Shown piece by piece: positions 12,539 to 31,179 of a stretch of 64,000 nucleotides of DNA. Made by a program: the position numbers and the translations under genes. The stretch spans positions 744,001 through 808,000 of the forward strand of contig NZ_JAROCG010000001.1 of NCBI RefSeq assembly GCF_030433645.1, read 5' to 3'. The first letter of the stretch is position 1, and every line of letters begins with the position of its first letter. This DNA is from Arthrobacter burdickii. Lineage in GTDB: Bacteria > Actinomycetota > Actinomycetes > Actinomycetales > Micrococcaceae. The notes beneath the pieces are model-generated. The model worked only from the letters and a program-made list of their open reading frames with translations. It had not been told where the DNA came from and did not search any database.

Positions 12539-12569
12539 AAAGGCCTTCGTCCACAGGTCCTCCACAGGG

Positions 12570-12589
12570 TTATCCACAATCGTGGATAA
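12570..12589. promoter_or_regulatory. Two inverted DnaA-box 9-mers
   Basis: TTATCCACA (12570-12578, plus strand) is a perfect classical DnaA box. The minus strand across 12581-12589 reads TTATCCACG, one base off. Together they form the palindrome gttatccac-N4-gtggataac. Two weaker ccacagg elements precede them within 25 bases. The cluster lies in the 151-base gap between the ABC-F gene and the membrane-anchored protein gene. It could titrate DnaA or let DnaA control the downstream gene. Confidence 0.55.
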
Positions 12590-28440: not shown

Positions 28441-28680
28441 ATGGCTAAGGCTGAACTCCGTAAGCCCAAACCAAAGTCCAACCCCTTGAAGGCCGCTGAC
28501 GTCACCGTCATCGACTACAAGGACGTAGCCCTGCTGCGTAAGTTCATTTCCGATCGCGGAAAGATCCGTGCCCGTCGCGTCACCGGTGTGACCGTGCAGG
28601 AGCAGCGCAAGATCGCCCAGGCAATCAAGAACGCCCGCGAAGTTGCACTCCTGCCGTACTCCGGCGCTGGCCGCGGCTAG
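28441..28680 (+). CDS. rpsR: Ribosomal protein bS18
   Basis: The 79-residue basic protein contains [18 protein letters not shown] and [20 protein letters not shown], the bS18 signature. It lacks the zinc-binding cysteines of C-plus S18 copies, so it is a C-minus type. It pairs with bS6 in the small subunit platform. The gene is 17 bases before rplI. Confidence 0.97.
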
Positions 28681-28697
28681 GGAAAGGGACACACACC

Positions 28698-29147
28698 ATG
28701 TCGAAGCTCATTCTGACCCAGGAAGTCACCGGACTCGGTGCCGCAGGCGACGTCGTCGAGGTGAAGAACGGTTACGCACGTAACTACCTTCTGCCCCGCG
28801 GTTTCGCCCTGATGTGGAGCAAGGGTGGCGAGAAGCAGGTCGATTCGATCAAGGCTGCCCGCTCCGCCCGCGAGCACGCATCGCTCGAGGACGCCCAGCG
28901 CCAGGCCGCCGCACTGTCGGCGAAGCCCGTCACCCTGACTGTCAAGGCGGGTGGCTCCGGCCGCCTGTTCGGCACCGTCAAGGCCGACGACGTCGCGAAG
29001 GCCGTCGAGGCCGCAGGCCTCGGCAAGATCGACAAGCGCAAGGTCGAACTGCCGGCTCACATCAAGTCGGTCGGTTCGTACCAGGCCAACGTCCGTCTGC
29101 ACGAGGACGTAGCAGCAGTCATCGATCTGGACGTCGTCGCCAGCTGA
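28698..29147 (+). CDS. rplI: Ribosomal protein bL9
   Basis: The 149-residue protein has the L9 N-terminal domain ([20 protein letters not shown] and [13 protein letters not shown]), a long connecting helix and the C-terminal domain ([20 protein letters not shown]). It binds 23S rRNA at the base of the L1 stalk. It is the last gene of the rpsF operon; a terminator hairpin follows 27 bases after the stop. Confidence 0.97.
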
Positions 29148-29174
29148 CAAGCCGGCAGCGAGACCAGGTTCACC

Positions 29175-29204
29175 AGGAAGCCTCCGCGGAAGCGGGGGCT
29201 TCCT
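29175..29204 (+). terminator. Terminator of the rpsF-rplI operon
   Basis: A 13-pair stem (29175-29187 with 29192-29204, one G-T wobble) with a GGAA tetraloop is followed by gtgttt. It lies just after rplI, so dnaB has its own promoter. Confidence 0.8.
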
Positions 29205-29452
29205 GTGTTTAACGCGTCACCGTCCCTCCCGGGCTCGTCAACGCAAACCTTTCCCTGAAAGTACGCACGGGAAGTCCGCCGGCAGGTACATGTCCCGCAG
29301 CGACTTCTTTCGGCATCTCCGGGAGGTCCTGGGTACCGGGAACTGCATATCGCCTAGTCCTGCCCCTACGCCCGTGGCACGCCGGGCTGGAACCGTATGG
29401 AGGGGTGGGGATATGTGCCCCCCGAGGGCACATGGAAGCGCCTTTTCGCTGG
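29205..29452. other. Intergenic stretch without a convincing gene
   Basis: No frame in these 248 bases looks coding: codon bias is poor and no family is recognisable. An 8-bp inverted repeat (atgtgccc, 29413-29420, with gggcacat, 29426-29433) lies in it. A structured RNA or regulatory leader is possible but not shown. It is part of a roughly 600-base gap between rplI and dnaB. Confidence 0.6.
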
Positions 29453-29635
29453 TTGTCAACAGAGCACCTGTGGACGGAGGGGCGTGGAAATTAGTTTGAG
29501 TCCACAGCCGGGGGATAACGTTTCCGCAGGTCAGAGCCCTGTTGGGGCCAGAACAATTTCTTTGTCCACAGGGTTGTCCCCATCCTGTGCACAAGAGATG
29601 GCACGTAATCCACAGCTTATTTCCACTTACCCACA
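29453..29635. promoter_or_regulatory. Cluster of DnaA-box-like 9-mers upstream of dnaB
   Basis: A perfect actinobacterial DnaA box, TTGTCCACA, lies at 29562-29570 and TTGTGCACA lies on the minus strand of 29586-29594. One-mismatch relatives are TTGTCAACA (29453-29461), TTGTCCCCA (29574-29582), TAATCCACA (29606-29614) and TTACCCACA (29627-29635). Further tccacag cores lie at 29468-29475 (minus strand) and 29501-29507. This density in about 180 non-coding bases is far above background. DnaA control of dnaB, or DnaA titration, is the likely meaning. Confidence 0.6.
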
Positions 29636-29802
29636 CCCCCTGTTGGCACAGCGCTTGGTGCCCTCCGGGAAGAGGTCTAGCGTTGCTGGAGATTCCCAAT
29701 AGTGAGGGTGGAGAGTGATAGGCCTGACCTGTCAGACCCGTCCCGGGTTTCCGGCGGACGCCTCGGCGACTGCCGCTTCGACAGCAGGAGAAAGGCCCTA
29801 CA

Positions 29803-31179
29803 GTGTCCCTGGCACATGCAGATTCATCACCGGACACTCGTACCCCGGAATTCTCACGTACGCCTCCCCAGGACCTCGTCGCCGAGCAGTCCGTCCTGGG
29901 CGGGATGATGCTTTCCAAGGATGCAATCGCCGACTGCGTGGAGGTGCTTCGCGGCATCGACTTCTACCGGCCCGCGCATGAGAGCATCTACGAGGCCATC
30001 ATCGACCTCTACGGCCGCGGGGAGCCGGCCGACGCCGTCACCGTCTCGGACGAGCTGACCAAGCGGGGAGAGATTTCCCGCATCGGCGGGCCTGCGTACC
30101 TCCACACGCTGATCCAGTCCGTTCCCACCGCGGCGAATGCCGGCTTCTACGCCGAGATCGTGCGTGAACGGGCCGTCCTTCGCCGGCTCGTCGACGCGGG
30201 CACGAAGATCGTCCAGCTCGGCTACTCCAACGACGGCGAGGTGGACGATCTCGTCAACGCCGCACAGGCCGAGGTGTACGCGGTCGCCGAGCGCCGCACG
30301 GCTGAGGACTACGTCGCGCTCAAGGACATCATCGAGGGCACCGTCGACGAGATCGAGTCGGCCGGCCATCGCGGCGAGGGCATGACCGGCGTCCCCACAG
30401 GATTCTACGAACTCGACGAGCTGACCCAGGGGCTGCATGGTGGCCAGATGATCGTCGTCGCAGCTCGTCCCGCCATGGGTAAGTCGACCTTCGCCCTGGA
30501 CTGGGCGCGCTCGGCGGCCATCAAGCACAACATGACCACCGTCTTCTTCTCGCTCGAGATGGGCCGCAACGAGATTGCGATGCGCCTGCTGTCCGCCGAG
30601 GCCACCATCGGCCTGCAGGACCTGCGCAAGGGCACCATCAAGGACGAGCAGTGGGGCAAGATCGCCACGACGATGGGCCGCATGAACGACGCGCCCCTGT
30701 TCATCGACGACAGCCCGAACATGTCCCTCATGGAGATCCGAGCCAAGTGCCGGCGGCTCAAGCAGCGGCACGACCTCAAGCTCGTAGTGCTGGACTACCT
30801 CCAGCTGATGTCATCGGGCAAGCGCGTCGAGTCCCGCCAGCAGGAAGTCTCCGAGTTCTCGCGAGCACTGAAGCTGCTGGCCAAGGAACTCAACGTGCCG
30901 GTCGTCGCGCTCTCACAGCTGAACCGTGGCTCCGAGCAGCGGACGGACAAGCGCCCGCAGGTCTCCGATCTCCGCGAGTCCGGCTCGATCGAGCAGGACG
31001 CCGATATGGTCATCCTGCTCCACCGCGACGACGTGTACGACAAGGAATCGGCCCGTGCCGGCGAGGCCGATGTGATCGTGGCCAAGCACCGTAACGGGCC
31101 CACCAAGACCCTCGTGGTCGGTTTCCAGGGCCACTACTCACGGTTCAACAACATGGCCGCGGACGGCGGGGGCTACTAG
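29803..31179 (+). CDS. dnaB: Replicative DNA helicase
   Basis: The 458-residue protein has the DnaB N-terminal domain (VAEQSVLGGMMLS at about 27) and the RecA-like helicase domain with Walker A ARPAMGKSTFALDWARS near residue 221, Walker B LVVLDYLQLM and QVSDLRESGSIEQDAD. It unwinds DNA at the replication fork as a hexamer. The GTG start follows agcaggagaaagg. The length is normal, so there is no intein, unlike some actinobacterial dnaB genes. The stop overlaps the convergent MarR gene by four bases. Confidence 0.97.
   Translation: MSLAHADSSPDTRTPEFSRTPPQDLVAEQSVLGGMMLSKDAIADCVEVLRGIDFYRPAHESIYEAIIDLYGRGEPADAVTVSDELTKRGEISRIGGPAYLHTLIQSVPTAANAGFYAEIVRERAVLRRLVDAGTKIVQLGYSNDGEVDDLVNAAQAEVYAVAERRTAEDYVALKDIIEGTVDEIESAGHRGEGMTGVPTGFYELDELTQGLHGGQMIVVAARPAMGKSTFALDWARSAAIKHNMTTVFFSLEMGRNEIAMRLLSAEATIGLQDLRKGTIKDEQWGKIATTMGRMNDAPLFIDDSPNMSLMEIRAKCRRLKQRHDLKLVVLDYLQLMSSGKRVESRQQEVSEFSRALKLLAKELNVPVVALSQLNRGSEQRTDKRPQVSDLRESGSIEQDADMVILLHRDDVYDKESARAGEADVIVAKHRNGPTKTLVVGFQGHYSRFNNMAADGGGY

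Follow-up and report, generated by a model that had tools for sequence, protein, structure and literature searches.

A conserved DnaA-box array at the predicted dnaB promoter of Arthrobacter burdickii and other Actinomycetes

The rplI-dnaB intergenic region

The window, a 64,000-nucleotide stretch of the genome of the soil bacterium Arthrobacter burdickii, carries rplI (28698-29147, + strand; TIGR00158), which encodes 50S ribosomal protein L9, upstream of dnaB (29803-31179, + strand), which encodes the replicative DNA helicase (TIGR00665, 550 bits) and starts with GTG. Among named relatives, this dnaB is closest to those of Arthrobacter, with 98% identity to A. echini. It is uninterrupted and contains no intein; in several relatives of the genus (six genomes), the gene is matched in separate pieces inside a single long open frame, a pattern that would fit inteins at two sites. 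A -35 hexamer TTGGTG (29655-29660, +) and a -10 hexamer TAGCGT (29678-29683, +), separated by a 17-bp spacer, are predicted for dnaB. Both are consensus calls, the former at conserved spacing and the latter in a conserved block. A genus-conserved block, AGTGAGGGTG..GGGTGATAGG (29695-29725), falls within the predicted dnaB 5' leader. An Rfam search of 28600-30200, leader block included, returned no match above chance, that is, no known RNA element.

Between the two genes, at 29453-29635, lie six 9-mers within one mismatch of TTNTCCACA, exactly the count and the span of about 180 bp reported in the initial annotation. The first, TTGTCAACA (29453-29461, +, one mismatch), is centred 198 bp upstream of the predicted -35 element, and here TGTCAACA is nearly invariant in the genus. 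It is followed by an exact TTGTCCACA (29562-29570, +; centre at 89 bp), the perfect actinobacterial consensus, and by TTGTCCCCA (29574-29582, +, one mismatch; 77 bp). A near-palindromic double box, composed of CTGTGCACA on the plus strand (29585-29593) and TTGTGCACA on the minus strand (29586-29594), has its centres 66/65 bp upstream of the -35 element and forms the most conserved block within the genus. The row ends with TAATCCACA (29606-29614; 45 bp) and TTACCCACA (29627-29635; 24 bp), both on the plus strand with one mismatch. The boxes had initially been described as lying on both strands; of the six, only the one at 29586 is on the minus strand and the other five are on the plus strand. 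Weaker boxes with two mismatches are present on the minus strand at 29469-29477 (CCGTCCACA; 182 bp) and 29510-29518 (TTATCCCCC; 141 bp), and on the plus strand at 29498-29506 (GAGTCCACA; 153 bp). The last of these resembles a box found 154 bp upstream of the -35 element in one Streptomyces locus. Conservation extends beyond 29635, up to the predicted promoter at 29655-29683. At 29641-29649, on the minus strand, a -35-proximal box that is a perfect TTATCCACA in many relatives and in Streptomyces has decayed to TGTTGGCAC in the window's own clade.

The DNA around the boxes is less GC-rich than its surroundings, so clustering of TCCACA through chance or composition in a low-GC intergenic region has to be weighed. 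From the window's own density of such 9-mers, about 0.06 would be expected in 183 bp where six are observed (Poisson P ~8e-11; ~3e-8 once corrected for ~350 windows), and none of 3000 dinucleotide shuffles of 29453-29635 contained more than four. Several TTRTCCACA-type 9-mers are therefore packed into a short region beyond chance expectation. The shuffles, together with the reversed-pattern control, conservation and phasing described below, refute a compositional origin, whose likelihood we consider negligible. The C-terminal domain of the genome's own DnaA contains GGRDHTTVIHA, and a motif of this type is the conserved box-recognition motif of DnaA.

An accessory replication site was also among the roles first suggested for the cluster, and directional box arrays do look like those of oriC. 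In E. coli oriC, directional rows of low-affinity, same-orientation boxes guide the ATP-DnaA oligomer (Rozgaja et al. 2011, via PMC4285127). The dnaB array resembles these rows in its same-orientation boxes, but ends at a promoter rather than at an unwinding element. No AT-rich unwinding region was found beside the boxes in 40-bp windows; the richest reaches 57.5% AT, compared with 70% at this genome's own dnaA-dnaN oriC, which makes an ectopic origin unlikely. Because a bona fide oriC is present at dnaA and the array is anchored to a predicted promoter, we regard an accessory or ectopic origin at this locus as very improbable.

Spacing and conservation of the array

When loci are anchored on the predicted -35 element, the box centres fall on a lattice of ~11 bp, at 24, 35, 45, 56, 66-69, 78-80 and 90 bp upstream, in fixed orientation and nearly all on the plus strand. 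Lattice positions 55 and 65-66 are also occupied on the minus strand, owing to the near-palindromic TGTGCACA. The window's centres at 24, 45, 66, 77 and 89 bp compare with 24, 45, 66, 78 and 90 bp in Streptomyces. Plus-strand boxes at positions 27-110, with loci collapsed into 25 lineages whose grouping is approximate, have an 11.0-bp period (R = 0.835), and none of 2000 random sets was as strong. Since the anchor had been chosen partly by means of a nearby box, phasing was retested from same-strand box spacings alone; the period was again 11.0 bp and was matched by none of 5000 random sets. A 10-bp stretch, approximately one helical turn, distinguishes the long form present in the window from a shorter form carried by other members.

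The box nearest to the -35 element has its centre 10 bp upstream when it lies on the minus strand (50 loci) and 12 bp upstream when it lies on the plus strand (21 loci). A box starting 13-15 nt before the -35 element is present in 58 loci, with 0.8 expected, and is often TTATCCACA abutting the hexamer; many Microbacteriaceae loci have a plus-strand box that starts 16 nt before it. The nearest box abuts the -35 element and overlaps neither it nor the -10 element in the aligned loci. Relative to the predicted promoter, the placement of the boxes is thus fixed and conserved, as would be expected at a DnaA-regulated promoter.

When 32 upstream regions from the genus are aligned, the boxes and the promoter form conserved islands amid diverged flanks. 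All 30 genus loci retain at least three boxes upstream of dnaB, so that the cluster is kept in close relatives, where its loss had been named as the outcome that would count against it. A central block, CCTGTGCACAAGACACG, occurs with up to two mismatches in 31 of 38 genus genomes, nearly always as a single copy and at the dnaB position.

For the class, we surveyed 179 Actinomycetes loci with sequence upstream of dnaB, counting as a box any 9-mer within one mismatch of TTRTCCACA in the ~600 bp upstream of the gene. At least three boxes were found in 156 of the 179, and the reversed control pattern gave 0/179. Across 80 named loci, box density departs from near zero only between 100 and 600 bp upstream of dnaB and is highest at 200-400 bp. 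Loci from other classes of the phylum (40 loci) average just 0.8 boxes, and three of them have at least three; this drop indicates that the array is a property of the class Actinomycetes. In Streptomyces, rplI lies ~2 kb from dnaB and the boxes are still beside dnaB. The array is therefore tied to dnaB, and an explanation linked to rplI was ruled out. Modestobacter retains a degenerate form of the array. The cluster is absent in four lineages, namely Nesterenkonia, Rothia, Sediminivirga and one Brachybacterium MAG. In these, dnaB lies behind another gene, and the adjacent upstream DNA differs and appears by eye to be mostly coding. These four exceptions imply that any control of dnaB by DnaA is not indispensable.

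A second element, CGCAGGTCAGA (29525-29535, +; in the window, GTCAG begins 125 bp before the -35 element), is not a DnaA box and is conserved inside the array across families. Its core is present upstream of dnaB in 110 of the 179 loci, compared with 9/179 for the adjoining 700 bp further upstream and 30 for the reverse strand. The genome contains four copies of the exact 11-mer. CGCAGGTCAGA is placed 115-117 or 125-127 bp upstream of the -35 element, and its distances to that element cluster near 118, 129, 141 and 150 bp, in steps of roughly one helical turn. This apparent phasing is suggestive only, because few independent spacing changes underlie it. The element hints at a further protein partner, and a second factor may bind there.

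Probable control of dnaB by DnaA

DnaA loads DnaB at the origin. An ordered row of boxes, spaced by about one helical turn and anchored to the predicted dnaB promoter in nearly all of the class, indicates that DnaA probably also controls the supply of the helicase that it loads. We thus consider it likely that the locus is a DnaA-controlled promoter of dnaB, at which a directional DnaA oligomer on the row of boxes regulates, and probably activates, transcription. DnaA, probably as ATP-DnaA, would nucleate on the better boxes and spread as a directional oligomer along the same-strand boxes ~11 bp apart. The oligomer would end just upstream of the dnaB -35 element and help RNA polymerase there, and helicase synthesis would in this way be coupled to the level of the initiator.

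DnaA binding upstream of dnaB is already known in two mycobacteria. According to the published study (PMC7738170), the site upstream of dnaB in M. tuberculosis (Rv0057 region) is one of only five strong DnaA sites genome-wide in vitro (IDAP-seq), and homologous sites in M. smegmatis are occupied in vivo (ChIP-seq). The same text reports that the M. tuberculosis DnaA variant I282T binds less well upstream of dnaB, and that this mutant alone under-expresses dnaB. The mycobacterial site, at which DnaA binding has been demonstrated, and the window's array lie at orthologous places, on the same side of the same gene. Box order, 11-bp phasing, promoter distance, CGCAGGTCAGA and conservation beyond mycobacteria, all seen here, do not appear in the passages of that study consulted. 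In Caulobacter crescentus, dnaB belongs to the DnaA regulon, with predicted upstream DnaA boxes and DnaA-dependent expression (Hottes et al. 2005, via PMC8203912). It shares the presence of upstream boxes with the window's dnaB, but belongs to another phylum. The initial suggestion that DnaA controls dnaB is thus supported by class-wide conservation, by helical geometry fixed to the -35 element, and by published mycobacterial binding and expression data.

The sign of control is less firmly established. A DnaA oligomer adjoining a promoter, as at dnaA promoters, could repress instead, blocking polymerase from beside the -35 element when DnaA is abundant. Autorepression by DnaA is common at dnaA promoters, and the boxes do adjoin the dnaB -35 element. 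However, the nearest box abuts the hexamers without covering either, and weaker binding in M. tuberculosis accompanies lower, not higher, dnaB expression. For these two reasons activation is favoured, and we judge repression unlikely. As a counterpoint, the -35-proximal box, which argues most strongly that polymerase is contacted directly, has decayed in the window's own clade, and the positive effect in A. burdickii is presumed.

A more elaborate version of DnaA-dependent activation, which we offer tentatively and with some doubt, would treat the dnaB promoter of Actinomycetes as a composite switch of ancient origin. A directional filament of DnaA, in phase with the helix, would grow to the -35 element, a second protein would sit at CGCAGGTCAGA on a matching helix face, and helicase synthesis would in this way respond to initiator state ahead of every replication round. 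Conservation across the class, the promoter-tied 11-bp grammar and the extra element appear to be new. They were not found in the largely open-access literature that was searched, and priority is uncertain. If DnaA does control dnaB, initiator and helicase supply would be wired together across the class, including Mycobacterium and Streptomyces. The array would also provide a simple setting in which to study how a DnaA oligomer acts on transcription, separately from replication. Because its grammar is fixed in 11-bp phase, orientation and promoter distance, the mechanism is directly testable with short insertions.

Other DnaA-box clusters and possible titration

Genome-wide box density was assessed by paired-box pattern searches, which clusters composed of weak boxes alone may escape. 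Among the matches listed, other clusters are few: oriC, the dnaA upstream region, 12547-12589 of the window, and the intergenic region between the convergent crgA and rhomboid-protease genes. The last is dense and lies outside the window at 598.4-598.5 kb of the contig, 14 kb from dnaA. Boxes are present just 3' of crgA in most of 30 class loci examined. The place matches the cryptic M. tuberculosis Rv0010c-Rv0011c DnaA site, Rv0011c being crgA. The discoverers of that site reported no obvious counterpart in other species (PMC7738170). Of the five mycobacterial DnaA sites, at least four thus appear to be represented in this genome.

Such sites bring up titration, which the initial annotation had also proposed for the dnaB cluster. 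Like datA, DARS or the Streptomyces clusters, the array might soak up DnaA or alter its nucleotide state after origin-proximal replication, its adjacency to dnaB being incidental. The boxes are dense and lie ~160 kb from dnaA/oriC, and only tens of kilobases from oriC in many relatives; moreover, the crgA-side cluster resembles a pure satellite site. Streptomyces coelicolor reportedly has DnaA-box clusters outside oriC (H24, H69 and D78), of which D78 is said to have been proposed to act by titration, and H24 may be the dnaB cluster. These resemble the window's array in being DnaA-box clusters outside oriC in an actinomycete. However, the boxes keep set positions and orientations relative to the dnaB -35 element, and the array follows dnaB instead of a particular site on the chromosome, neither of which a titration site requires. 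A site of the datA or DARS type would combine a non-promoter location with an effect on initiation; the location of the array is promoter-linked. We consider it quite unlikely that titration or a nucleotide switch is its main function, and find titration plausible as a secondary role or side effect of a strong cluster at a DnaA-controlled dnaB promoter.

The cluster at 12547-12589 contains four boxes and a perfect dyad, GTTATCCACAATCGTGGATAAC; it is flanked by an ABC-F gene and by a gene whose product weakly matches an Rv0361-like membrane protein. Of 38 genus genomes, 5 carry the dyad, and the site may be bound by DnaA or may be a terminator-like hairpin. Finally, one relative of the genus has, besides dnaA, 17 short DnaA-family matches, several of them identically scored, which are probably the AAA+ helper ATPases of repeated insertion sequences.
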